Positions 1 through 10,967 of a stretch of DNA of 33,915 nucleotides are shown piece by piece. The stretch comes from Prochlorococcus sp. AG-363-G03. Its GTDB lineage: Bacteria > Cyanobacteriota > Cyanobacteriia > PCC-6307 > Cyanobiaceae. Position 1 is the stretch's first letter. Every line of letters begins with the position of its first letter. Position numbers and translations under genes: made by a program. The stretch lies in the NCBI GenBank assembly GCA_003280265.1, contig QCFJ01000014.1, forward strand, positions 1 to 33,915, in the 5' to 3' direction. A model generated the notes under the pieces. It was given only the letters and a program-made list of their open reading frames with translations. It was not told the DNA's origin and searched no databases.

Positions 1-255
1 AAACTTTTTATAAAACTGATTTTCTGATAATTCAATCTCAAAACAAACTACATTATCAAAGTCACCATTACTATGCATACTAGACATATGATCTTTGATT
101 TCTATATTATCGAGAACCAATCCAAAATCTCTATAATACTTAGACAATATTTTCTTTGCTGAATCGTGATCGGTAAGAAACCGCTAACATAGCTCTGACA
201 GATTTTCCTCATTCAAATTATTAATCATTTTCTGAAAATCATTAAAGCCTTTCAT
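1..255 (-). pseudogene. Partial hypothetical gene with an in-frame stop, running off the left edge
   Basis: On the minus strand an ATG at 255 opens a frame beginning MKGFNDFQKM. It meets a TAG at 186-184 after 23 codons. The same frame then stays open for 61 codons to base 1, with a coding-like composition (RFLTDHDSAKK, later SSMHSNGDFDNVV). This suggests one gene interrupted by a nonsense mutation, or a short ORF followed by a gene with a downstream start. I recognise no family. It lies outside the leftmost ychF-end repeat, so it belongs either to the backbone beyond the island or to another module. Confidence 0.3.
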
Positions 256-451
256 TTGATTTTCTAAGAAGTCGAAGTTATGTATTCATAATTTCTTTTC
301 ATAACTTCTTCACAGCAAATATTGCTTTAGTTAAGTAATCAAATATTCATCATGGTGTAACTTTGATTTAATTAGAGTGCATATATCTATCAAATTCACT
401 TCTAAGAGGCTAAAAGCTCTATTGGAGAATACTGGAACCCCTACTATGAAA

Positions 452-479
452 AGTCTGCTATACGTTGAATAAAAACTCC
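452..479 (-). repeat. ychF 3'-end direct repeat, copy A (att-like)
   Basis: These 28 bases match 5637-5664 perfectly, including the last codons and stop of ychF (core GCTATACGTTGAATAAAAAC on the plus strand). There is no ychF gene body here, only its end. Weaker similarity continues left of the core (shared AACCC and AGTCTG words). It is best explained as an attachment-site duplicate left by an element that integrates at the ychF 3' end. Strand is given as that of ychF. Confidence 0.75.
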
Positions 480-631
480 CTGCAGAAGTTATACCAATTG
501 ATTACGAGCAAAAATCCGTGTTAGACCAAATCGCCAATTTGCCAGAACAAGTTAGAACAGCTTTGCAGAGTTATCTTGAGAACTGCTTAGACAAATCAGA
601 TTTGGAAGACCTATCAAGACACCTCTTCTAG
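473..631 (+). pseudogene. C-terminal fragment of an unknown gene abutting repeat A
   Basis: A plus-strand frame is open from 473, just after an in-frame TAA formed by the repeat, to a TAG at 629-631, giving 52 codons. It reads like the acidic, helical end of a real protein (VIPIDYEQKSVLDQI, then DLEDLSRHLF at the C-terminus). There is no start codon with a plausible upstream region, because its left edge lies in repeat A. A diverged, shorter copy follows repeat B near 2939-2963 (VAPVDYS then stop). I infer that the same gene end was carried next to both repeats. Family unknown. Confidence 0.35.
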
Positions 632-678
632 CGAATATGGAAACTATTTTTCCAAACCAAAAAATTAAATTAGAAAAA

Positions 679-1119
679 CTAATTCACCTCAGTGACTTCT
701 GATAATGCTGCTTTAATGGGCAAAACATATTCTTTGTTGTCAAAATCAAGTATCGCAACTTTTCTATCATCAAATTCATCTTTATAGACGATAGTGAAAA
801 TATGCTGATGTTCTATTTTGGTAAATAATAATCCAATAATTCCAATTCTCGCTGCAAGAGCAGAATTCATTTTTCTTAAACTTGTATCAGAATAATTCCA
901 ATGGACAATGTTTGAATATCTTATTTTATTTGATCTTCCAGAACTTGGAAAATTAAGCTTCATAAATTTATTATAAAAACTAACATTACAAGGGTATTTT
1001 GTATTTATATCTGAAAGGCATTGTAAATCTAAATACTCCTCAGCGGATCTCATATTAGGAATAAAAATTGCATTGAATGCAATTAAAATTGTTGTAATAA
1101 GTGTTTTTTTCATTTTCAT
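679..1119 (-). CDS. Small secreted protein, related to the 2096-2566 product
   Basis: The 146-residue product begins MKMKKTLITTILIAFNAIF, a basic then hydrophobic stretch typical of a signal peptide, so export is likely. The mature part has a pair of cysteines (CLSDINTKYPC), a short hydrophobic GIIGLLF segment, then an alternating beta-like stretch (HIFTIVYKDEF). The same order of elements occurs in the protein at 2096-2566, which I take as a diverged paralogue. It is the last gene of a three-gene minus-strand set, 25 bases after the lipoprotein gene, so co-transcription is likely. The paired cysteines could form a disulphide in the periplasm. No known family was recognised and no function is proposed. 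Confidence 0.7.
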   Translation of the reverse strand: MKMKKTLITTILIAFNAIFIPNMRSAEEYLDLQCLSDINTKYPCNVSFYNKFMKLNFPSSGRSNKIRYSNIVHWNYSDTSLRKMNSALAARIGIIGLLFTKIEHQHIFTIVYKDEFDDRKVAILDFDNKEYVLPIKAALSEVTEVN

Positions 1120-1144
1120 TTGCTGAATTATTATTTTTAAATAT

Positions 1145-2011
1145 TTAAAGCATTTTATCTTCTAAAAATTCTACAATTTTATCTATGGTGTCATAAAAGG
1201 CAATTCTAGTCTGATCAGATTGAGAACCACCACTAAAAATACTTGATCCAGTTATACCATCTAATACATTGGCCCTATCTTTACTAACCAAAGCACTTCT
1301 TCCAGAGAAAGTTTTTGATGCAATAATATCTTCTTCTCTTGTACTAATAATATCAATTTTCAAATCAATCTCAGCATTACTTGTAGTTTTAGTTGATCCT
1401 GCTAAACCACCAAAACCAAGAGCAAGTCCAACTGGGTTATACGAAGTCTTTGTATTACTATTGCTTGAAGATTTCAAAATAACTGGTCTAACTACATAAC
1501 AAGCTGAAAAATCTTTTGCGACTTGAATAACTTCATTTAAATTTTCATCATTAACTATGGAACTTTGTTGACCATACATATTCATCATCATTTGCTGCTG
1601 ATTATTATTTTGGCTAGCTAATAATTCTTTAAGTTTCTTAGATACCTTAAACCAGGCAACTGTTTTAATCCCCTCATTTCTAAAAGATTGATTCATAATC
1701 TCAGTAGCAAAACCTGAAAGGTCAGCACCTGCGCCTGGGACGGGGACTCCATAAGGAGATGCCGCAGAACCAGAGGCACTTGTTACTGGCATCAATACAA
1801 CTTTTCTTTTGGTGTGATACCTAATACCTCTTAGCGTCTCCTTCGAGCCTTCACTAATTGCTTTAGCTTTAAGTAAAACTTCCGATGCCTCCGCTTCACA
1901 AGGATCTCTTTCTACAACCTTAGGAGTCGATGTACAACCAAAAACAAGAGGGGAAAAAGCAAATAACAATGCTAAAGAAATAGCTTTTCTTCTAGTATTC
2001 ACGTGTTTCAA
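1145..2011 (-). CDS. Envelope lipoprotein, CsgG/LpoB-like fold suspected
   Basis: The 288-residue product has a basic N-terminus, a hydrophobic stretch and a lipobox LVFGC with Cys26, so it should be a lipid-anchored envelope protein. The body starts with a beta strand KVVLMPVTSA, then a region like the 'make a complete set, find the N-terminal part of an enzyme' layout of CsgG, LpoB and GNA1162-type proteins (helix ATEIMNQSFRNEG, strand, helix). A low-complexity stretch (NNNQQQMMMNMYGQQ) lies near the middle. A glycine-rich GLALGFGGLAG segment and an amphipathic C-terminal helix follow. The annotated start is TTG at 2011; a GTG at 2002 is an equally good start and still leaves a full signal. 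It sits between two related small secreted proteins, which may be partners. The fold assignment is inference. Confidence 0.65.
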   Translation of the reverse strand: MKHVNTRRKAISLALLFAFSPLVFGCTSTPKVVERDPCEAEASEVLLKAKAISEGSKETLRGIRYHTKRKVVLMPVTSASGSAASPYGVPVPGAGADLSGFATEIMNQSFRNEGIKTVAWFKVSKKLKELLASQNNNQQQMMMNMYGQQSSIVNDENLNEVIQVAKDFSACYVVRPVILKSSSNSNTKTSYNPVGLALGFGGLAGSTKTTSNAEIDLKIDIISTREEDIIASKTFSGRSALVSKDRANVLDGITGSSIFSGGSQSDQTRIAFYDTIDKIVEFLEDKML

Positions 2012-2095
2012 TTTGGATTTACGAAAGGATACAACATCAGGTATTAAGAATAAGGTTCATAAAAAATATATTGAAAAAATAGATATAGTTAGAGA

Positions 2096-2566
2096 TTAAT
2101 CTGAAGAAATATTTTCTAAAAGAACAGGTAACTCTTGTCCTAGTTTAGCGGCTGCTTTCATATTTTTGAATCTTATAAAAGCAGTTTTTTTTCGGCCGCG
2201 ATCATTCTCAAAAGATACACCATAATCAATAGTACCTGATTTTTTTTTAACTAAAAATCCAAGCAAACCAACAGGTCCTAAAAGAAGTGTAGAAACGGTT
2301 CCTACAACAAGATTTGATGATTTTCCAAGATCTTCGTAAACCTTTAAATCAAGAAAGTTTGTTTCATCAACATATAAATAATCAGTAGGAAGATTTGCCT
2401 CAATATGTGTATCAGAAATAGTAACTCTACAAGGATGATAATCAGTATAAAAAGAACATATTGCTTTATGTGTTCCTGCGTTTAACTTTTTAGGTAATCC
2501 ATAGAAAGAGAAAACCAAAAGTATTGAAGTTGAAATTAATAGTCTTAGCTTATTCCGTAATTTCAT
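2096..2566 (-). CDS. Small secreted protein, paralogue of the 679-1119 product
   Basis: The 156-residue product has a signal peptide (MKLRNKLRLLISTSILLVF) followed by a two-cysteine motif CSFYTDYHPCRV. A hydrophobic glycine-rich segment LLLGPVGLLGFLVKKK follows, then a beta-like stretch with a basic patch (GRKKTAFIRFKN) and an acidic helical end. The 679-1119 protein shows the same plan: C-x9-C, GIIGLLF, then a similar strand pattern. It is first in the minus-strand set, 84 bases ahead of the lipoprotein. No known family was recognised. The hydrophobic segment could insert into or lie on a membrane. Function is unknown. Confidence 0.7.
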   Translation of the reverse strand: MKLRNKLRLLISTSILLVFSFYGLPKKLNAGTHKAICSFYTDYHPCRVTISDTHIEANLPTDYLYVDETNFLDLKVYEDLGKSSNLVVGTVSTLLLGPVGLLGFLVKKKSGTIDYGVSFENDRGRKKTAFIRFKNMKAAAKLGQELPVLLENISSD

Positions 2567-2902
2567 AAATAAATTAAATTTAAATAACTAATGATACCAA
2601 GCAATAAGCTAGTAAAAGTAGTTTGGGTAGCAAATTTAATAATTAGGATTTAGCAGTGAAGTTAAATAGTTATTTTTTTAACTAATAGCTAGAGGAATTT
2701 AATGATCTTCGAGGGTTAATCCTTTTGACTAAGCATTAAGTTTTCAATAGCGATGAGAAGCCTCTAAATTAAAAGACAAAAACTGATCTACTCAGTCTCA
2801 AGTGTCTTACGGGTCCACGCAAAAGTACTAAAAACGAGTAAATTGTTAGAAAAAAAATTAGAATTTGTTCTAACACGATTCTTGAGAACCCTTGCTATTA
2901 CT

Positions 2903-2930
2903 AATCTGCTATACGTTGAATAAAAACTCC
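2903..2930 (-). repeat. ychF 3'-end direct repeat, copy B (att-like)
   Basis: These 28 bases match the true ychF end (5637-5664) with one difference, A for G at 2904. Similarity to copy C extends both ways, roughly 2876-2938 against 5609-5673. It includes AACCCTT to the left and AT-ACGTC to the right, so it covers about ten ychF codons plus 3' flank. It separates the lipoprotein module from the metal-responsive module. Confidence 0.75.
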
Positions 2931-3000
2931 ATCACGTCCAGTTGCACCAGTTGATTACAGCTAAAAAATAGGGTTAGACATAAACGCTAAAAAGTTAGAC

Positions 3001-3028
3001 AAAGTTAGACAACCAGACGAGCCATCTT
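3001..3028 (+). repeat. 28-base direct repeat, left end of module 2
   Basis: The stretch starting AAAGTTAGACAACCAGACGA and ending CATCTT recurs at 5531-5558 with one difference in 28 bases. The two copies bracket the three-gene operon in the same orientation. Further GTTAGAC words lie immediately left of this copy. They could be recombinase arm sites or transposon-like ends; the sequence alone does not decide. Confidence 0.7.
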
Positions 3029-3085
3029 GAGATTCCAATAAGTCTTTGAACTGAACTATCATTAAAATTCTTTCGGAAAGAAAGG

Positions 3086-3799
3086 TTACGCGAACCCTCG
3101 CCCTCTGGATTTAGTGACATCACCCACCGTTAAGAAGTGAGTCTGATCACTGCCAACGTCATAAAGAGTGTAATTAGCCCCTGCTCCAATTCCTATCACT
3201 GCACGTTTAGGAAGAGTATGTTCCTGGTTTCGTTTTCCATTTAAATCTTTTACTTTTGAGTCAACTACAGCATCAGTCAACTCAAGATGAAATTGCTGTT
3301 TACTTCTAGCTGTGAATAATCTATTCACATTAAGGCGGGTAATTCGATCAAGAAGAGTAAGTGGAGGTGTTTGCATTGTCAGAATGTCTCCTACATCTTT
3401 TGAGCTTCCATGAATCAAACCACAATCAAGTTCTACAAATCCAAATTGTAGTGATGATATCCATCCCAAATAATATGGATCTACAGCATTCATAAGAGCA
3501 TTGACAACATCGTCTCCTTTATTGAGTCGTAAAGCATCTGCCTTTCTCTCCCCACGGTAACCTGATTCTGCCAATAATTGTTCCTCCCACCAGCCATAGA
3601 TACAGTGAGGTTTCAAATCACCACGATGAGGATTTACTAATCTATTTAAAAGTGCATCACAATTCTTATCTGGTCCTACAACGTCTCCTAAAACAAAAAG
3701 AGTTATATCTCCGCGAGTATTTTTTAAATCTTTTTGAATCAATTCATAGGTCTCAAGATCTCCCATAAGACCACTTAAAAGTGCCCAACGTTCAATCAT
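3086..3799 (-). CDS. Degenerate calcineurin-like phosphoesterase paralogue, probable pseudoenzyme
   Basis: The 237-residue product aligns along its length with its neighbour at 3796-4611 and so belongs to the metallophosphoesterase superfamily. The catalytic motifs are mostly lost. The usual SDxHG reads SGLMGD (residues 9-14), GNHD reads GWWE (69-72), and GHTH is replaced by a segment reading TARSKQ. Only LGD at 37-39 and an IHG remain. I infer no hydrolase activity and suggest a regulatory or partner role, perhaps as a heterodimer. The ATG at 3799 overlaps the upstream stop as ATGA, implying translational coupling; a GTG at 3808 is less likely. The frame is intact and ends with a basic RGRGFA tail, so it appears maintained rather than decaying. 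It is last in a three-gene operon. Confidence 0.75.
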   Translation of the reverse strand: MIERWALLSGLMGDLETYELIQKDLKNTRGDITLFVLGDVVGPDKNCDALLNRLVNPHRGDLKPHCIYGWWEEQLLAESGYRGERKADALRLNKGDDVVNALMNAVDPYYLGWISSLQFGFVELDCGLIHGSSKDVGDILTMQTPPLTLLDRITRLNVNRLFTARSKQQFHLELTDAVVDSKVKDLNGKRNQEHTLPKRAVIGIGAGANYTLYDVGSDQTHFLTVGDVTKSRGRGFA

Positions 3800-4611
3800 C
3801 GTTCGCACACGTGGCTAGCATCTTCAGCCAGTTCAGCAAACTCAAAACCGTTGCTCAAACGCCATGCAAACACATGGGGTAGACCAGCCTCAATAATTGC
3901 CTCACATGTTCGATCAATGTCGTAAGCAACTTCTCTAATCTCAACATCATTCTTTATATCGTCATGAATAACATAGGTAGCATTTACTCCTCCATGACGA
4001 GGTTCTCCGACAGATCCAGCATTTACAATTCTTCTAATAGGTAAAGTCATTTTCATATCTTCTCTTTCACGATCGGAAGCATTTTTAATATTTACGCGAA
4101 TTGATCCATTCCCTAATTCACGAACATATGGGAGATGAGTATGACCGCAAAACAAAGTATCGGCTCCGCTCATTTCAACTCGTTCTAATGCAGCGAATGC
4201 ATCCATATCTGGAAGCAGATACTCATGCTGACTGTTGGGACTTCCATGTACGAATAACGATCTACCTCTTCTAATCGAGGTTGGGAGACTAGCTAGAAAT
4301 TCTTTGTTTTCATCAGTCAACTTCTCCGTTGTCCATTGATGAGCCATATGCCCTCGCCTTTCTGCAAGCTGAGATGGATAGCTGCAATCACAAGCATCAA
4401 GACCATCAATTATGTCTTCATCCCAGCAACCCTGACAGGTTTCTATCTTCCTATCTCTAATAAGCTCAACAACTTCATTTGGCTGAGGACCATAGCCAAC
4501 AAGATCGCCAAGACATGTAATGGTCTCAATTCCTTGCCGATCAATATCACCTAGCACAGCTTGCACTGCTGAGAGATTGGCATGTAAACAAGAAATTACT
4601 GCGTGTTTCAT
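3796..4611 (-). CDS. Metallophosphoesterase with Cys at two metal-ligand positions
   Basis: The 271-residue product has the order of motifs of calcineurin-like phosphoesterases of the YfcE/COG0639 kind: LHANLSAV, LGDLVGYGPQPN (34-45), FVHGSP (120-125), GHTHLP (156-161) and NAGSVGEPR near the end. Two motifs are altered. The usual SDIHGN reads SCLHAN, with Cys8 where the Asp ligand belongs. The usual GNHD reads GCWD, with Cys62 for the Asn ligand and Trp63 for the catalytic His. A CDC motif follows at 74-76. I chose the ATG at 4611, five bases after the upstream stop, since the residues before it do not fit the family. It overlaps the next gene by four bases. It probably binds metal, with zinc favoured by the Cys substitutions and the operon promoter. 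Activity is uncertain. Confidence 0.8.
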   Translation of the reverse strand: MKHAVISCLHANLSAVQAVLGDIDRQGIETITCLGDLVGYGPQPNEVVELIRDRKIETCQGCWDEDIIDGLDACDCSYPSQLAERRGHMAHQWTTEKLTDENKEFLASLPTSIRRGRSLFVHGSPNSQHEYLLPDMDAFAALERVEMSGADTLFCGHTHLPYVRELGNGSIRVNIKNASDREREDMKMTLPIRRIVNAGSVGEPRHGGVNATYVIHDDIKNDVEIREVAYDIDRTCEAIIEAGLPHVFAWRLSNGFEFAELAEDASHVCER

Positions 4612-4615
4612 ATCA

Positions 4616-5404
4616 TCAAGTTGAATAACTAGGCTGCATTTGTGTATCTCTAAGAGGGGCTTGATGAAGCTCCAAAACTGAATCATTCAAGAGACAAAGC
4701 TGAATAGTTGATTCAATTCGTGCGGAGTCAAGATTTTTCCCTTGAACAACGAGTTCAGATATTCTTGTAGGTCTACCACTAGGAGGTGAGACAGTATTAA
4801 GAGGTAAAAATTGCGAACCTTTTTGGCTAACAATCCAGTTAAAGAACATAGATCTACCATCGGGGATATTCATCAAGGCTTTAGCTCTATAAACATCTCC
4901 ATAAGCACCATTAACCAGCTCGAACCAAAAGGTATTCAGACTAGGTGGATCCCAAACATTCCGATGAAGCTTGAACCTGCATGATTCAATTTGATTGAAA
5001 TTTAATGTGTCATTAATGGGTAATTCCCTATCACGTCCAAAATGAAGGTATTTATCTGGTTCGAGGTTTAAAGTTGCAAGTTGTTTGATTACGCGCGGAT
5101 CAATTCCAGCCAAACCAAGCTCTTTAGGAATTCTAAACTGAGGAAGCTCAATCAATATAAAAGAATCATCTTGATGCGAAATAGAGTCTGCACTGGACCT
5201 TGATAAATCTATTAATTGAGGAATTTGATCTTTAAGAAAGGCATAGTCAATATCTGTAGAAGCTACTTGCTGTAGATCAATATCTCCGTAACCAGATAGA
5301 CGCAAAAAACCACAACGACCTTTGTGTGACTTGAGATTATGAAGAATCCAATTCGTTTTGCCACAGCCTGGCGATCCTGAAATCAGCCACGTATTGCTGC
5401 CCAT
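4616..5404 (-). CDS. Divergent CobW/COG0523-type P-loop protein
   Basis: The 262-residue product starts with a strand and Walker A loop, WLISGSPGCGKTNW (loop at residues 10-17). It has a Walker B-like strand FILIELPQ, and a C-terminal part resembling the CobW C-terminal domain (VNGAYGDVYRAKALMNI, then a strand with FFNWIVSQ). COG0523 proteins are G3E GTPases that handle metals, often zinc, under Zur control. Two hallmarks are missing: no CxCC metal motif follows the P-loop and no NKxD base-specificity motif is seen. It is also shorter than the usual 300-400 residues. I prefer the ATG at 5404 over a GTG at 5413, since it places the P-loop as in relatives. It is first in the operon, directly behind the Fur/Zur-type box. 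A role as a metal chaperone or sensor for the two downstream proteins is inference. Confidence 0.65.
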   Translation of the reverse strand: MGSNTWLISGSPGCGKTNWILHNLKSHKGRCGFLRLSGYGDIDLQQVASTDIDYAFLKDQIPQLIDLSRSSADSISHQDDSFILIELPQFRIPKELGLAGIDPRVIKQLATLNLEPDKYLHFGRDRELPINDTLNFNQIESCRFKLHRNVWDPPSLNTFWFELVNGAYGDVYRAKALMNIPDGRSMFFNWIVSQKGSQFLPLNTVSPPSGRPTRISELVVQGKNLDSARIESTIQLCLLNDSVLELHQAPLRDTQMQPSYST

Positions 5405-5420
5405 ACAGCACACAAATCAA

Positions 5421-5436
5421 TGTATAAGAATATACA
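5421..5436 (-). promoter_or_regulatory. Perfect inverted repeat covering the -10 region of the module 2 operon
   Basis: TGTATA-N4-TATACA is a perfect palindrome. On the minus strand it contains TATATT (5434-5429), a good -10 hexamer about 25 bases ahead of the ATG at 5404. It could simply be an AT-rich promoter core or a second operator beside the Fur/Zur-type box. Confidence 0.4.
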
Positions 5437-5449
5437 CTGGATATGAAAA

Positions 5450-5464
5450 CGATAATCATTATTG
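5450..5464 (-). promoter_or_regulatory. Fur/Zur-type operator ahead of the COG0523-phosphoesterase operon
   Basis: The stretch CGATAATCATTATTG is a near-perfect 7-1-7 palindrome and agrees at twelve of the fourteen arm positions or nearly so with the general Fur-family consensus TGATAAT-N-ATTATCA. It covers the -35 position for a -10 TATATT at 5434-5429 on the minus strand, where a bound repressor would block transcription. COG0523 genes are classic Zur targets, so Zur is preferred over Fur or PerR, but the sequence alone cannot separate them. Confidence 0.6.
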
Positions 5465-5530
5465 TTTTATTACCTAGATATTTGATTATTTAGACGCCCT
5501 GTCTCAAAAAAACAACCTTTCGCGTCTCAA

Positions 5531-5558
5531 AAAGTTAGACAACCAGACGAGACATCTT
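5531..5558 (+). repeat. 28-base direct repeat, right end of module 2
   Basis: This copy matches 3001-3028 at 27 of 28 bases (A for C near the end). More GTTAGAC words follow at 5578-5584 and 5591-5597, between it and ychF-end repeat C. The repeats therefore sit just inside both ends of the three-gene module. Confidence 0.7.
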
Positions 5559-5636
5559 TAAGAAAAACAGCGAAAAAGTTAGACAAAAAAGTTAGACAAG
5601 GCTATAATTGAATCGCTGAAAACCCTTGGTATAACT

Positions 5637-5664
5637 AGTCTGCTATACGTTGAATAAAAACTCC
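5637..5664 (-). repeat. ychF 3'-end direct repeat, copy C (native gene end)
   Basis: This copy is part of the intact ychF gene. It covers the codons for the last residues (EFLFNV), the TAG at 5645-5643 and six bases of 3' flank. Copies A and B to the left repeat it without the rest of the gene. Integration here leaves ychF whole, as is usual for integrases that target gene 3' ends. Confidence 0.75.
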
Positions 5665-6734
5665 ATAACGTCTCCTTCATTCACAATATATTCTTTACCT
5701 TCACTTCTCAACCAACCTTTGTTTCGAGCTTCCGCTAAAGATCCTGCTTCTAATAGTTTTTTATATGAAATGGTTTGAGCTCGAATAAACCCCTTCTCAA
5801 AATCCGTGTGAATCACCCCAGCAGCCTGAGGAGCTGTCATCCCATCAGAAATAGTCCAAGCCTTTGTTTCTTTTTCACCAGTAGTAAAATATGTGCTTAA
5901 ACCTAGCAATCGATATGTAGCCTTAATAAGGCTAATTAAACCTCCTTCCTTTACACCTAATCCATTCAGATAATCATCTCTTTCCTCCGCACCTAATTCA
6001 ATCAACTCTGATTCAACCTGCGCTGAAATCTTCACACATTCAGAACCTTCTTTCGTTGCCAGTATATTTACTTCTTCTGAAAAGGAATTACCATTGGCAA
6101 GTTCTTCTTCTCCAAGATTAGTTGCATAAATAATTGGTTTTTCCGTTAGTAAGCCTAATGGTTTAATTAATATTTTTTCTTCATCAGTTAACGAAACACT
6201 TCTAACTGCATTTTCATTTTCCAGAGCTTCACTTAATTTTCCCAATACCTCATCTTCTAACTTTGCTTCCTTATTGGTACTTATCTGTTTTTTTAATCTA
6301 GTTCTACGTTTTTCTATTTGATTTAAATCAGACAATGCTAATTCTAAATTTATTATCTCAATATCTCTTGATGGGTCTACTGATCCAGAAACATGAACAA
6401 CATCATCATCGCTAAAACACCTAATTACATGAACTATTGCATCCACCTCCCTTATATTTGCTAAGAATTTATTACCCAGTCCTTCCCCTTTACTTGCACC
6501 CTTAACAAGACCAGCAATATCAACAAACTCCATCCTAGTTGGAATAATTTGCTTACTGTTGCTCAGTTCGCCAAGAAGCTTCAAACGTTGATCCGGTACT
6601 GAAACAGAGCCAACATTGGGTTCAATCGTACAAAAAGGGAAGTTTGCTGCTTGAGCTTTTGCATTCGCGACAAGAGCATTAAACAAAGTGGACTTTCCAA
6701 CATTTGGGAGTCCTACAATTCCGGCCTTGAGCAT
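5643..6734 (-). CDS. ychF: YchF/OLA1-family ribosome-binding ATPase
   Basis: The 363-residue product is full length for the family. It starts with [17 protein letters not shown] (Walker A/G1 at about residues 7-17), followed by [17 protein letters not shown] (G3) and a G4-like YATNLGEEE. The NxxE form of G4 is the YchF signature linked to ATP rather than GTP preference. A coiled-coil insertion lies in the middle ([16 protein letters not shown]) and the C-terminal TGS domain ends [10 protein letters not shown]. YchF binds ribosomes and is implicated in stress and redox responses. The start is the ATG at 6734. It is transcribed away from the HlyD gene on its right. Its last codons and stop are duplicated at 2903-2930 and 452-479, which makes this gene end the likely integration site for the left-hand island. 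Confidence 0.97.
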
Positions 6735-6898
6735 TGAAATGGGTCTTTGAAAAGACGCCAGCTGATTAATTTGCCTAAATTAAACCCAATAGTGCCCTTT
6801 AACAGCGAAAATATAGTTATAAATCTCCAAAGGAAAGTTTTTAAGCTTTTCTTGCATCATTCAAATTCTAAAACTCTTGAGTACTTGATTTTCACAAA

Positions 6899-7972
6899 AT
6901 GATTTGGACAATCTTAAAAAAGAAAAAATTTTTAGGCTTAATTGCACTTTCGGTATTAGGTGTTGGTGGAATTAGTTTTAAACTTTCACAAGGAGATAGA
7001 TCTAATAAAGACATAACTAAATTTACAATTGCAGCTGAAAGCGGAAGCTTACCTGGCTTAATAACAGCAAGTGGTGAATTAAAAGCCAATAAAAGCGTCA
7101 ATGTAAGTCCAAAGAGACAAGGAATACTTGATGAAATTTTTGTAGAGGAAGGTGATCAGGTCAATAAAGGAGATCTAATTGCAAAAATGGATTTTGGAGA
7201 CTTGGAATTTAGAATTGAAGAAATAAAGGCAAATTATCAGACTCAAAAAGCGAGTTATCAGAGAAGAAAAATGCTCTTCAATGAAGGTGCCATAAGTGCA
7301 GAGGAGTATGAAGAATATAAAAATAGATTTTTAAGAAGCGAAGCTAAATTTAAACAAATAGAGGTGGAAGAGAATGAGACAAGCATAAGAGCACCATTTA
7401 AAGGAGTAATAACGAGCAGATACGCAGTACCTGGAGCATTCGTAACACCCACGACCTCTGCTTCTTCATCAAGAGAAGGAGGATCTACAAGCTCATCAAT
7501 AGTCAAACTCTCTCAAGGTCTTGAAATAGTTGCGAAAGTGCCTGAAAGCGATATTGGAAGAATAAAAACTGGTCAAGAAGCGACAATTAGAGTAGATGCT
7601 TTTCCTGATAAGCGTTTTAGAGCAGTTGTTTCCAAAATCTCACCGAGTGCAATCAAGAATAACAACGTAACCTCATTTGAAGTTACGTTGTTGTTGAGCA
7701 AGAAGGCTGATGATCTGCGCCTAGGCATGACATCTGACATCAACTTTCAAACCGGCGCAACAAAACTTAGTACACTTATACCTACCGTTGCGATTGTCAC
7801 GGAAGAAGGAAAAGCTGGAGTGCTTGTAGTTGGGAATAACAATCAACCAACATTTAAAAAAGTTGAGTTAGGGACAAGTAGTGGTAGTAAGACTGCAATA
7901 ATATCTGGATTACAACCTGGCGAGAAAGTTTTTATTGATCTTCCTCCTTGGGCTAAAAAAAGGAACAATTAA
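6899..7972 (+). CDS. HlyD/MacA-type periplasmic adaptor protein
   Basis: The 357-residue product has one N-terminal membrane anchor (FLGLIALSVLGVGGI) and then the layout of membrane fusion proteins. A first lipoyl half-motif (GILDEIFVEEGDQVNKGDLI) comes first, then a short helical hairpin (about residues 100-155, many Gln/Lys/Glu). The second lipoyl half (IRAPFKGVITSRYAVPGAFV), a beta-barrel (VAKVPESDIGRIKTGQEA) and a membrane-proximal domain ending GLQPGEKVFIDLP complete it. A serine-rich loop follows the second lipoyl half. Such adaptors connect an inner-membrane ABC or RND pump to the outer membrane or shape periplasmic export. No pump gene adjoins it; polA follows 34 bases later. The substrate is unknown. 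Its promoter must lie in the 164-base gap shared with divergent ychF. Confidence 0.88.
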   Translation: MIWTILKKKKFLGLIALSVLGVGGISFKLSQGDRSNKDITKFTIAAESGSLPGLITASGELKANKSVNVSPKRQGILDEIFVEEGDQVNKGDLIAKMDFGDLEFRIEEIKANYQTQKASYQRRKMLFNEGAISAEEYEEYKNRFLRSEAKFKQIEVEENETSIRAPFKGVITSRYAVPGAFVTPTTSASSSREGGSTSSSIVKLSQGLEIVAKVPESDIGRIKTGQEATIRVDAFPDKRFRAVVSKISPSAIKNNNVTSFEVTLLLSKKADDLRLGMTSDINFQTGATKLSTLIPTVAIVTEEGKAGVLVVGNNNQPTFKKVELGTSSGSKTAIISGLQPGEKVFIDLPPWAKKRNN

Positions 7973-8006: not shown

Positions 8007-10967
8007 ATGAAAGAAATAAAAAAGCCAACTTTATTATTGATTGATGGCCATTCTTTGGCTTTTAGAAGTTTTTATGCTTTTAGCAAAGGAGGGGAAGGAG
8101 GACTTGCCACAAAAGACGGATTCCCTACGAGTGTTACCTATGGTTTTTTAAAAAGTCTTTTAGATAATTGCAAAACTATCGAACCTAAAGGAATCACAAT
8201 TGCTTTTGATACTGCTGAACCAACATTTCGCCATAAGGAAGATCCAAACTACAAAGCCAATCGAGATGTAGCACCAGAAATATTTTTTCAAGATTTAGAC
8301 AAGCTTGAAGAGATTCTCAAAGACAGTCTGAATCTTTCAATATGCAAAGCCCCAGGATATGAGGCTGATGATGTCTTAGGAACACTTGCCAATGATGCCG
8401 CTGATAAAGGATGGAGTGTCAGAATCCTTTCTGGAGATAGAGACCTATTTCAATTAGTTGATGACAAAAGGGATATCGCAGTCTTGTACATGGGTGGAGG
8501 TCCTTATGCAAAAAGCGGAAATCCCAAACTGATTAATGAAGAGGGAGTTAAGGAGAAACTTGGCGTCAATCCAAACAAAGTCATAGATCTGAAGGCTTTA
8601 ACTGGTGATAGCTCAGATAATATTCCTGGCGTCAAAGGAGTTGGTCCAAAAACAGCAATAAATCTATTAAACGAAAACAATGATCTTGATGGAGTATATA
8701 AATCACTCCAAGAGCTAGAGAAAGAAGGCGAAAAAGCTAAACGAGGCGCCATAAAAGGAGCAGTAAGATTAAAGCTAAAAGCAGACAAAGATAATGCATA
8801 TCTTTCAAGAAAACTTGCAGAAATATTAATTAAAATCCCTATAAATCCAAAAATAGATCATAACTTAGAAGGTATTAATGAATCAAAACTAACTGAAAAC
8901 CTTGAAAAACTTGAATTACACAGTTTATTAAAACAAGTTTCAACTTTTAAAGCTCTATTTTCTAAAGAAGGATTATCAGAACAAGACAATACTCGCTCAT
9001 CAAAAGAAAGTAAGATAGTTAATAATAAGAGCAAGAATATTGAACTAACTAATCCTAGTGAGACAAAAGATATTCCTCAGATAGAGCCTAAGATTATAAA
9101 CAATCTAGAAGAACTTAATAATTTTGTTGCACAAATAATGAAATATACAGATAAAAATAAACCAATAGCTATTGATACCGAAACAACCAATTTGAATCCT
9201 TTTAAAGCTGAACTTGTTGGCTTGGGATTTTGTTTTGGTGAATCATTAAAAGATATAGTTTATATACCAATAGGACATCAAACGGAAGAAGCCGATTTAA
9301 TAGAAATTAATAATATAAATCAATTAAAAATTGAAGAAGTTATCTATGCACTTCAGGATTGGTTCTCTAGCAAGGAAAATCCTAAAACCCTACAGAATGC
9401 AAAATACGACAGACTGATATTGCTAAGACATGGAATTATATTAAATGGCGTTGTAATTGATACTTTACTTGCAGACTATATATGTGATGCAACTCTTAAG
9501 CATAGTTTAGATGAAATTGCCTATAGAGAATTTGGCTTTAAGCCCAAAAGTTTTTCTGATGTTGTCAAAAAAGGAGAAGACTTTTCTTCTGTGGACATTA
9601 AGTCTGCAAGTATATACTGCGGAATGGACGTTTATTTAACAAGAAAATTAGCAATCATTTATATTGAAAGGTTAAAAAGTACAAGTTCAAAATTAATAAA
9701 ATTACTCAAAGAAGTTGAACAACCACTTGAGCAGGTTTTAGCGGAAATTGAATCTACAGGTATAATTATTGATACACCTTATCTAAAAGATTTATCCTTA
9801 GAGCTAACAAACACATTAAGAACTATCGAGGAGGAAGTTTATAAGATTGCAGGAAATGAGTTTAACCTTTCATCACCTAAACAATTAGGTGAATTACTTT
9901 TTGAGAAACTTGATTTAGATAAGAAAAAATCAAGAAAAACAAAAACAGGATGGAGTACAGATGCAGGTGTATTGGAAAAGCTAGAATCAGACCATCCAAT
10001 AATAAAAATGATTATTGAACATCGCACTATAAGTAAGTTGCTTAATACTTATGTAGATGCTTTGCCTCAGCTTATTGAAAAAGAAACGGGAAGAGTACAT
10101 ACTGATTTCAATCAAGCCGTAACCGCTACTGGAAGGTTAAGTAGCAGCAATCCAAATCTCCAAAATATCCCTGTCAGAACTGAATTTAGTAGACGAATAA
10201 GAAAAGCTTTTCTTCCGCAAAAAGATTGGAAACTTCTAAGCGCAGACTATTCACAAATTGAACTTCGTATACTCACACATCTTTCAGGTGAAGAAGTACT
10301 AAAAAATGCTTATTTAAAAAATGAGGATGTCCACTCTTTAACTGCAAAAATTTTATTTGAAAAAGAGGCTATTGACGCCGATGAAAGAAGAATAGGAAAA
10401 ACAATAAATTTTGGGGTTATTTATGGTATGGGGGCTCAAAGGTTTGCAAGATCAACGGGCGTTTCATTAATAGAAGCAAAATATTTTTTAAGTAAATTCA
10501 AAGAACGTTATCCAGCTGTTTTTAAATTTTTAGAATATCAAGAAAGACTTGCCCTAAGCCAAGGGTTTGTTGAAACATTGCTAGGGAGAAGACGTTATTT
10601 TCATTTCAATAAAAATGGGCTTGGAAGACTTCTGGGAACTCCACCAAATGAAATTGATTTAACTACGGCCAGAAGAGCAGGGATGGAAGCACAACAATTA
10701 AGAGCCGCAGCAAACGCACCGATTCAAGGCTCAAGTGCAGACATAATTAAGCTAGCAATGATTCAATTGCATTCAGCTTTAAGAAAGACTGGATTAGCAG
10801 CGAGAATTCTACTTCAAGTGCATGATGAACTCGTGCTAGAAGTTGATCCCAAAGATTTGGAGGAAACAAAACTCCTTGTTCGAAACACGATGGAAAATGC
10901 TGTAAAACTTAGCGTCCCTCTTATAGTTGAAACTGGCGTTGGAGTAAATTGGATGGAGGCAAAATAG
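8007..10967 (+). CDS. polA: DNA polymerase I
   Basis: The 986-residue product has all three classical domains. The 5'-3' exonuclease (residues 1 to about 310) begins LLLIDGHSLAFRSFYAF and has GYEADDVLGTLA and TGDSSDNIPGVKGVGPKTA. The 3'-5' proofreading domain keeps its acidic residues: Exo I IAIDTETTNL (Asp390, Glu392), Exo II NAKYDRL and Exo III YCGMDVYLT. The polymerase domain has TATGRLSSSNPNLQNIPVR, motif A DYSQIELR (Asp747), the O-helix RRIGKTINFGVIYGMG and motif C VHDELVLE (Asp940). It therefore looks fully active in all three functions: gap filling, primer removal and proofreading. A charged low-complexity linker joins the first two domains. It lies between the adaptor gene and cysS, all on the plus strand. 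Confidence 0.98.
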   Translation: MKEIKKPTLLLIDGHSLAFRSFYAFSKGGEGGLATKDGFPTSVTYGFLKSLLDNCKTIEPKGITIAFDTAEPTFRHKEDPNYKANRDVAPEIFFQDLDKLEEILKDSLNLSICKAPGYEADDVLGTLANDAADKGWSVRILSGDRDLFQLVDDKRDIAVLYMGGGPYAKSGNPKLINEEGVKEKLGVNPNKVIDLKALTGDSSDNIPGVKGVGPKTAINLLNENNDLDGVYKSLQELEKEGEKAKRGAIKGAVRLKLKADKDNAYLSRKLAEILIKIPINPKIDHNLEGINESKLTENLEKLELHSLLKQVSTFKALFSKEGLSEQDNTRSSKESKIVNNKSKNIELTNPSETKDIPQIEPKIINNLEELNNFVAQIMKYTDKNKPIAIDTETTNLNPFKAELVGLGFCFGESLKDIVYIPIGHQTEEADLIEINNINQLKIEEVIYALQDWFSSKENPKTLQNAKYDRLILLRHGIILNGVVIDTLLADYICDATLKHSLDEIAYREFGFKPKSFSDVVKKGEDFSSVDIKSASIYCGMDVYLTRKLAIIYIERLKSTSSKLIKLLKEVEQPLEQVLAEIESTGIIIDTPYLKDLSLELTNTLRTIEEEVYKIAGNEFNLSSPKQLGELLFEKLDLDKKKSRKTKTGWSTDAGVLEKLESDHPIIKMIIEHRTISKLLNTYVDALPQLIEKETGRVHTDFNQAVTATGRLSSSNPNLQNIPVRTEFSRRIRKAFLPQKDWKLLSADYSQIELRILTHLSGEEVLKNAYLKNEDVHSLTAKILFEKEAIDADERRIGKTINFGVIYGMGAQRFARSTGVSLIEAKYFLSKFKERYPAVFKFLEYQERLALSQGFVETLLGRRRYFHFNKNGLGRLLGTPPNEIDLTTARRAGMEAQQLRAAANAPIQGSSADIIKLAMIQLHSALRKTGLAARILLQVHDELVLEVDPKDLEETKLLVRNTMENAVKLSVPLIVETGVGVNWMEAK

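Follow-up and report, generated by a model that had tools for sequence, protein, structure and literature searches.

A putative cell-envelope module carried as one cassette of a ychF-anchored tandem array in Prochlorococcus

Streamlined bacteria are described as carrying additive flexible genomic islands in which tRNA 3' ends are repeated, such as fGI-2 of 'Ca. Methylopumilus' and fGI1 of 'Ca. Actinomarinales' (PMC10872708, PMC7771536). Prochlorococcus is also streamlined, having a very large variable gene pool, and its carriers, as described in PMC10872708, are the tycheposons, tRNA-targeted elements of 4-200 kb linked to 7 tRNA genes and to a tyrosine recombinase. The present analysis concerns a stretch of 33,915 nucleotides (the window), which is the whole contig QCFJ01000014.1 of Prochlorococcus sp. 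AG-363-G03, a genome 57% complete and probably of the low-light ecotype, judging by its G+C content and size, and within it three consecutive genes of the minus strand, with intergenic gaps of 25 and 84 nt, coding for a 146-aa protein (P1), a lipoprotein (LP) and a 156-aa protein (P3). We regard it as rather probable that this trio forms a conserved module of the cell envelope, housed here in a single exchangeable cassette of 2.4 kb, where the mobility and the function are the parts that we infer. Going by the accounts cited, the nearest known kind of element is the additive flexible genomic island. Below, P4 designates a frequent fourth neighbour of the trio, whereas G and L followed by a number stand for a genome and a locus stretch, respectively. 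The features of the trio, its cassette and its anchor are as follows:

679..1119, minus strand: P1, 146-aa secreted-looking two-cysteine protein with a predicted PH-like fold (open reading frame, family alignment, AlphaFold2 (AF2) model, PDB matches)
1145..2011, minus strand: LP, 288-aa lipoprotein with a TTG start and a predicted CsgG/PelC/LpoB/TolB-N fold (open reading frame, lipobox, PF03783 matches of orthologs, AF2 model)
2096..2566, minus strand: P3, 156-aa secreted-looking two-cysteine protein, predicted homologue of P1 (open reading frame, profile comparison, family)
435..479, minus strand: distal ychF 3'-end site, end of the trio cassette (repeat and site searches)
480..2883, minus strand: trio cassette P3-LP-P1, 2,404 bp between sites (sites, cassette length)
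486..506, minus strand: right-end motif of the trio cassette (TGTAATCRRYTGGTATRACTG, 2 mismatches; motif search)
2884..2938, minus strand: middle ychF 3'-end site, junction of two cassettes (site searches)
5618..5672, minus strand: anchor site, the last ychF codons and 25 nt downstream (site searches)
5643..6734, minus strand: ychF, 363 aa, intact housekeeping GTPase gene and anchor of the array (open reading frame, orthologs)

Positions 435-479, 2883-2938 and 5617-5672 carry copies of one segment, giving three matches where shuffled sequences lead one to expect 0.00, and the copy at 5617-5672 coincides with the last part of ychF and the 25 nt that follow it. The initial annotation of the window had placed the trio between att-like repeats, and the copies at 435-479 and 2883-2938 do enclose it; these repeats reproduce the 3' end of ychF, and the trio occupies a single cassette in a tandem array that extends further. 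The gene at 5643..6734, which we take to be ychF from its sequence, has orthologs 72-79% identical in 16 of 18 genomes of other genera. The trio cassette carries TCTAAC-type arms at both ends. No tRNA was found in the window, nor any Rfam match at the gathering threshold in positions 1-7000, and a promoter and terminator scan of 430-3000 returned 7 promoter-like sites, against 11.1 in shuffles, and no terminator. On the plus strand, the interval from P1 to the distal site contains at 521-631 what reads like the orphan C-terminus of a protein (LDQIANLPEQVRTALQSYLENCLDKSDLEDLSRHLF) and may be the relic of a gene end.

The conservation of the trio was followed in 400 genomes of the same family as the window genome, where LP was detected in 16 genomes, P1 in 20 and P3, in many cases as a weak match, in 38. 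The P1 family is present in all 16 LP genomes and adjacent to LP (hypergeometric chance 3e-25), and the four P1 genomes lacking LP comprise a broken remnant in G224 and three weak matches within frames of more than 1,300 codons. P3 was recovered by single-sequence search in 10 of the 16 LP genomes and in 5 more by position, BLAST clustering or profile; in the sixteenth, G333, a contig end cuts the locus. Moreover, 12 named LP relatives were retrieved from GTDB contigs, all recorded as Prochlorococcus, and their LP gene has P1 beside it in 12 loci, P3 in 11 (the missing one being L089, cut at the contig end) and P4 in 6. The gene order is identical in 14 of 14 tabulated loci, from which L079 (contig cut) and L081 (P3 by profile only) were omitted, and P1 and P3 run in the direction of LP in 5 of these loci and opposite to it in 9. 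This order, fixed despite the strand flips, indicates more than a single inherited operon. The three genes are a conserved module in picocyanobacteria, so the initial proposal does not fall on the genes never being found together elsewhere. Its suggestion of co-occurrence in phages found no backing, as relatives of LP, P1 and P3 sought in IMG/VR and in phage records gave none, plasmid and metagenome collections lying outside this search.

Regarding the small proteins, P1 bears a signal-peptide-like start, judged by eye, and the motif C34-x9-C44, and P3 bears C37-x8-C46, both cysteines being invariant in each small-protein set (12 sequences for P1, 11 for P3). A glycine-rich hydrophobic stretch (IGIIGLLF; VVGTVSTLLLGPVGLLGFLV) is followed by a basic beta-rich stretch. 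The common plan first ascribed to these proteins is thus retained for the signal-peptide-like start, the two cysteines and both stretches, but not for the 'PC' pair, which is replaced by ICN, LCN, MCN and others among the relatives. Profile-profile comparison relates P1 to P3 (probability 80, E 1.3e-5), as had been supposed, and relates each of them more closely to P4 than to one another (P1-P4, probability 93, E 2.7e-7; P3-P4, probability 95, E 5.6e-8); judging by these profiles, P1, P3 and P4 are homologous paralogues. In addition, the P4 of G146 (L071 6712-7659) has its two-cysteine domain fused to a Ysc84/SYLF domain (PF04366, 2.4e-8), and another P4 (L057 251-1129) contains a glycine-zipper-like stretch, as seen by eye.

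P1 was the sole small protein modelled, on an alignment of P1 and P4 sequences taken from the window and from the named loci, and its AF2 model has a mean predicted local distance difference test score (pLDDT) of 76. The model contains seven strands of at least 3 residues and a C-terminal helix, in agreement with the PH-like seven-stranded barrel capped by a C-terminal helix. By Foldseek it matches PDB entry 3voq (E 3.3e-4), and it superposes on MTMR6 (Z 12.0, root-mean-square deviation (rmsd) 2.0 Å, 90 aligned) and SSRP1-N (Z 11.6, rmsd 2.2 Å, 94 aligned), the top eight PDB rows reaching Z 11-12 across 90-101 residues. The modelled fold of P1 is PH-like, resembling the eukaryotic PH domains and SSRP1-N. 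Bacterial PH domains are also PH-like. P1 differs from PH-like domains in being secreted-looking, in its two invariant cysteines, in its hydrophobic glycine-rich insertion and in having no Pfam or NCBIfam match.

The lipobox of the window LP reads LVFGC, and its cysteine is also found in L071, L072, L073 and L079, the last of which had lost its start at the contig edge. None of P1, LP and P3 gave a significant Pfam or NCBIfam match, LP giving only weak sub-threshold Pfam matches, and a CsgG likeness is undetectable against Pfam from the single window protein; among the 16 LP members, 7 matched PF03783 (CsgG) at E up to 1, the best at 4.6e-5, and the ortholog of G019 reached 23.3 bits against a cut-off of 20.8, that of G197 remaining under it with 19.4 bits. 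A PDB sequence search with the LP profile gave no match. By Foldseek, the top PDB match of the LP model is CsgG (4uv2, E 2.2e-6; by Z 10.8, rmsd 5.7, 154 aligned), and approximately equal Z scores of 10-12 were obtained for DUF330, CT253, FlgT, PelC, an LPHT ring, CsgG, TolB and LpoB, with tighter fits to LpoB (Z 10.1, 114 aligned, rmsd 2.5) and to the TolB N-domain (Z 10.4, 121 aligned, rmsd 2.9). Considering these nearly equal fold matches and the single PF03783 match clearing its cut-off, LP is best called, from its model, a CsgG/PelC/LpoB-fold lipoprotein and is not named a CsgG channel; the lipobox and the CsgG/LpoB-like body of the initial annotation are upheld in this form. LP shares with the CsgG, PelC, LpoB and TolB-N lipoproteins the modelled fold and, in this clade, the lipobox, and differs from them in the lack of a Pfam CsgG match in the window protein and in its predicted PH-fold partners. 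Genes of the curli, Pel or Tol systems were not noticed around the trio.

The array was traced through matches to the ychF 3' end in 41 genomes of the genus, of which 24 have two to eight matches, 7 have one and 10 have none; in draft genomes, some of these matches lie on other contigs, and in the six single-contig genomes all 23 are within 10 kb of ychF. Twenty stretches around such matches, together with the window, form a sample of 21 loci holding 89 sites, which keep a single orientation within each locus, with no mixing. Between the sites there are 68 complete cassettes, the shortest of 61 bp and the longest of 6,343 bp, with a median length of 2.2 kb. One type, C1, recurs 9 times with 2,622-2,680 bp, and where the locus includes ychF, which is so in 7 cases, it stands at position 1 from that gene 5 times and otherwise at position 3 or 4. 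A second type, C2, with a CP_ATPgrasp, an Alpha-E and a transglutaminase protein as cargo, recurs 6 times with 3,672-3,708 bp at positions 1, 2 and 3; it adjoins ychF in L184 and L195 and is separated from it by another cassette in L192 and L196, as insertion at ychF predicts. In 16 genomes of other genera, repeats of the ychF end are clear in G007 (E 1e-9, 4e-4) and G001 (E 9e-6) and weak in G166 and G276 (E 0.003), none being found in forward orientation at E up to 0.01 in the other 12; the background is given by reverse-orientation matches at E 0.003 (G276) and 0.009 (G010), and G033 has only a weak junction-like match (E 0.0036).

In the window, the cassette next to ychF is of type C1, with these features:

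2939..5617, minus strand: ychF-proximal cassette of type C1, with a metallophosphatase, a CobW-C-like protein and a 240-aa neighbour (same type in 8 other genomes)
2939..2959, minus strand: right-end motif of this cassette, 2 mismatches (motif search)
3086..3808, minus strand: 240-aa open reading frame of C1 with no Pfam match (open reading frame, Pfam)
3796..4686, minus strand: 296-aa metallophosphatase of C1 (PF12850, 1.3e-20)
4616..5413, minus strand: 265-aa protein of C1 with a CobW_C-like end (PF07683, 1.3e-4)

Other cargo of the arrays, as seen in a scan of 20 proteins, 19 of them from array stretches and a few lying past the outermost site, includes TPR proteins, a carbamoyltransferase, an SNase, a nucleoside phosphorylase, a pentapeptide protein, an RTX-like protein and a nuclease-like protein. 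At L191 1903-2814, an array cassette protein with MrcB_N and NucS_C domains stands beside a 356-aa secreted-looking protein. Moreover, a 189-aa family of 12 members having no Pfam match (L184 7821-8387 and relatives) is the sole sizeable cassette gene in several loci and could belong to the transfer machinery; its assignment as a ribbon-helix-helix protein was dropped for want of a Pfam match.

Read in the direction of ychF, a junction runs from the right-end motif through a core containing GGAGTTTTTATTCAACGT and through AGTCATACCAAGGGTTCTC into the arms of the following cassette, and at the ychF site the right-end motif is replaced by the ychF coding sequence. The exact core is found in 17 of 18 ychF sites. 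For the junctions, 69 of 71 were used, the two running off stretch ends being omitted; the right-end arm TTGGTATGACT is present (at least 9 of 11 positions) in 57 of the 69 and in none of the 18 ychF sites, and a RYYYAAC box stands at fixed positions, at -41 in 53 and at +17 in 57 junctions. In 64 cassettes of at least 700 bp, TCTAAC/GTTAGA occurs 1.73 and 2.19 times per 150 nt at the two ends and 0.07 times inside, thus being approximately 25-30 times denser at the ends. The right-end motif was located at 20 places in eight genomes, 17 in arrays and 3 elsewhere, and the backwards pattern at none. Copies of a recurring cassette are 93-99% identical and their similarity breaks at the sites. For every one of the 51 pairs of C1 or C2 copies compared, it ends 30-173 nt beyond the end of the cassette, where at least 505 nt were available, and 46-132 nt ahead of its start, except where both copies abut ychF. 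Near C1:763003 in G086 (L273), a right-end motif lies beside an apparent tRNA 3' part, with two close copies, as judged by eye, a hint of site arms in common with elements that target tRNA genes.

Integron cassette arrays without an integrase are known as CALIN, and an attC site is made of RYYYAAC and GTTRRRY boxes and folds into a strong hairpin. The ychF arrays share with CALIN the tandem, small, one-orientation cassettes with a site each and the RYYYAAC boxes at fixed positions; however, no GTTRRRY box was found at a fixed place in the junctions, and the primary site is the end of a housekeeping gene. As attC-like hairpins the sites qualify partly at most, being weak (median z -1.3; 21 of 69 junctions fall below a z of -2, and none of the 18 ychF sites does). 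The arrays also differ from integrons in that no integron integrase appeared among the 10 of 19 retrieved recombinases that were scanned, the best match to TIGR02249 scoring 27.6 bits against a cut-off of 265. It may tentatively be put forward that low-light-type Prochlorococcus has an integron-like but unrelated cassette system, in which small cassettes lacking a recombinase, with ychF-mimicking sites, phased arm boxes and one orientation, would be stacked behind that housekeeping gene and moved in trans by an enzyme encoded elsewhere, with envelope modules like the trio among the cargo traded; this broader idea is less probable than not.

Compared with the additive flexible genomic islands, as those are outlined in PMC10872708 and PMC7771536, the ychF array has in common the serial insertion of cassettes at one target, the direct repeats of the target end and the streamlined aquatic host, but its target is a protein gene, ychF, instead of a tRNA, its repeat of approximately 55 nt has a conserved right-end motif and phased boxes, and the same cassettes appear at different positions with sharp ends. 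The tycheposons, by their description in PMC10872708, are likewise cargo-carrying elements of the same organism that target a gene end; here, the cassettes have a median of 2.2 kb, the tested arrays hold no PF00589 protein and the target is ychF. Among the matches listed in a literature search, judged by titles and the starts of abstracts, no description of a ychF-anchored array in Prochlorococcus was present, the tycheposons being compared through PMC10872708. The exact junction and core patterns gave no match in IMG/VR, nor the junction in phage records. Anchoring at ychF with defined, phased cassette ends would be a new form of additive island, a claim of novelty limited to these sources.

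The simplest reading of the sites is a site-specific insertion that restores the end of the target gene. A tyrosine-type recombinase acting in trans would use the shared core to attach the cassette to the 3' end of ychF, the cassette would supply its own copy of the last codons, so that ychF stays whole, and each new insertion at ychF would push the older cassettes outward. The RYYYAAC/TCTAAC arms around the core would be binding sites.

Several observations weigh against a mobile envelope cassette of this kind. The exact core is kept in just 39 of 69 junctions and the right arm AGTCATACCAA in 48, and cassette ends taken as matched inverted repeats had to be abandoned, since 834 of 1000 shuffles were as good. 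No PF00589 protein (E up to 0.01) was found in the arrays of eight genomes, a search that left serine recombinases aside, so that the enzyme must act in trans if the site-specific reading is right; the sole integrase common to all eight genomes belongs to the core gene set of the family, being present in 106 of 121 genomes, and homologous recombination from repeat to repeat could shuffle cassettes as well. The trio cassette lies intact between sites in this window only, with no second copy among the 68, and in the other LP genomes of the genus (G146, G233 and G333, the last two with short contigs) no site was found on the trio stretch examined, the trio of G146 being outside the array, approximately 36 kb from its C1 cassette. 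For LP, the confidence of the AF2 model is modest (pLDDT 64.7), and the lipobox is not conserved, as at least 8 of the 16 LP sequences have, by eye, a signal-peptide-like start lacking the lipobox cysteine.

Regarding the common integrase, a 386-aa tyrosine recombinase (L214 820-1977, G000:C20; its ortholog in L207 has no NCBIfam match) was rejected as array-specific because it is near-universal in the family. As for the trio elsewhere, G224 has a P4-like gene between two sites and a broken P1 just past the second, G233 has two P3-like genes beyond the last site of its array stretch, and in AG-402-N08 the trio stands behind a gene that is presumably guaA. The module is thus housed in the ychF array and also outside it. 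No direct repeats (E 0.01) were found next to the trio in L072, L081 and L071, and those of L080, located at 8.8-9.8 kb, are inside a TPR-like frame. In L075, from another genus (G065), a different repeat of 110-170 nt is located on both sides of the trio (5967-6126, 10347-10516 and 10855-10965), and the trio again adjoins C1-type genes.

The strongest competitor of site-specific insertion, though we consider it doubtful, is that the cassettes are moved mainly by homologous recombination between the short ychF-end repeats, which would be old insertion scars. It draws on the missing PF00589 recombinase, on the differences between site copies and on the reshuffling expected from strain mixing, but such recombination needs neither arm motifs nor phased RYYYAAC boxes, yet the cassette ends carry both, the similarity breaks at the sites in 51 of 51 pairs and the 89 sites keep one orientation per locus. 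Insertion at ychF by a recombinase acting in trans is preferred for the mobile part of the reading.

As regards function, the folds, signals and loops lead us to infer that the trio is a membrane-facing envelope complex. LP would be exported and, in this clade, lipid-anchored at the inner face of the outer membrane, forming a ring or scaffold, and P1, P3 and, where present, P4 would be its disulfide-bonded periplasmic PH-fold partners, whose hydrophobic glycine-rich loops, together with the hydrophobic tip of the long LP hairpin (170-223), may touch or enter the membrane.

A different role, which we hold to be unlikely, would make LP a CsgG-like secretion pore with P1 and P3 as exported substrates, in a minimal curli-like export system. 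The PF03783 matches of LP orthologs, the first rank of CsgG 4uv2 by Foldseek and the secreted-looking proteins encoded beside LP agree with it. CsgG has two membrane hairpins that form a barrel. The LP model, at pLDDT 64.7, has one long hairpin (strands 170-191 and 205-223) and lacks the second; in addition, Pfam at E up to 1 returned nothing for P1 or P3 and hence no curlin repeat, DUF330, CT253, FlgT and PelC are equal or better by Z, and many LP relatives, by eye, have no lipid anchor. It is less likely still that the module is an LpoB- or TolB-N-like helper of a peptidoglycan synthase or of a Tol-Pal-type system, with P1 and P3 regulating cell-wall growth, as suggested by the tight fits of LP to LpoB and the TolB N-domain: wall helpers are usually core genes, whereas the module is patchy (16 of 400 genomes), and the frames around it were not seen to connect it with wall synthesis. 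A role in phage defence, or as cargo borne by phages, for which the nuclease-like protein with MrcB_N/NucS_C domains in the variable array might speak, is highly improbable, as 9 proteins gave no PADLOC match and viral contigs and phage records held no relative. A membrane-facing envelope complex is retained as the preferred role of the trio.

If the reading of an exchangeable cassette is true, a second route, anchored at a protein gene and having a defined site, and with at least two site matches in 24 of 41 genomes of the genus, would explain part of the variability of Prochlorococcus. The defined site gives exact cassette ends that can be sought in metagenomes, and the unnamed secreted proteins become a testable envelope module with a fold-based hypothesis. 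The row of cassettes behind the end of a housekeeping gene points to a little-described route of gene swapping in streamlined ocean cyanobacteria.

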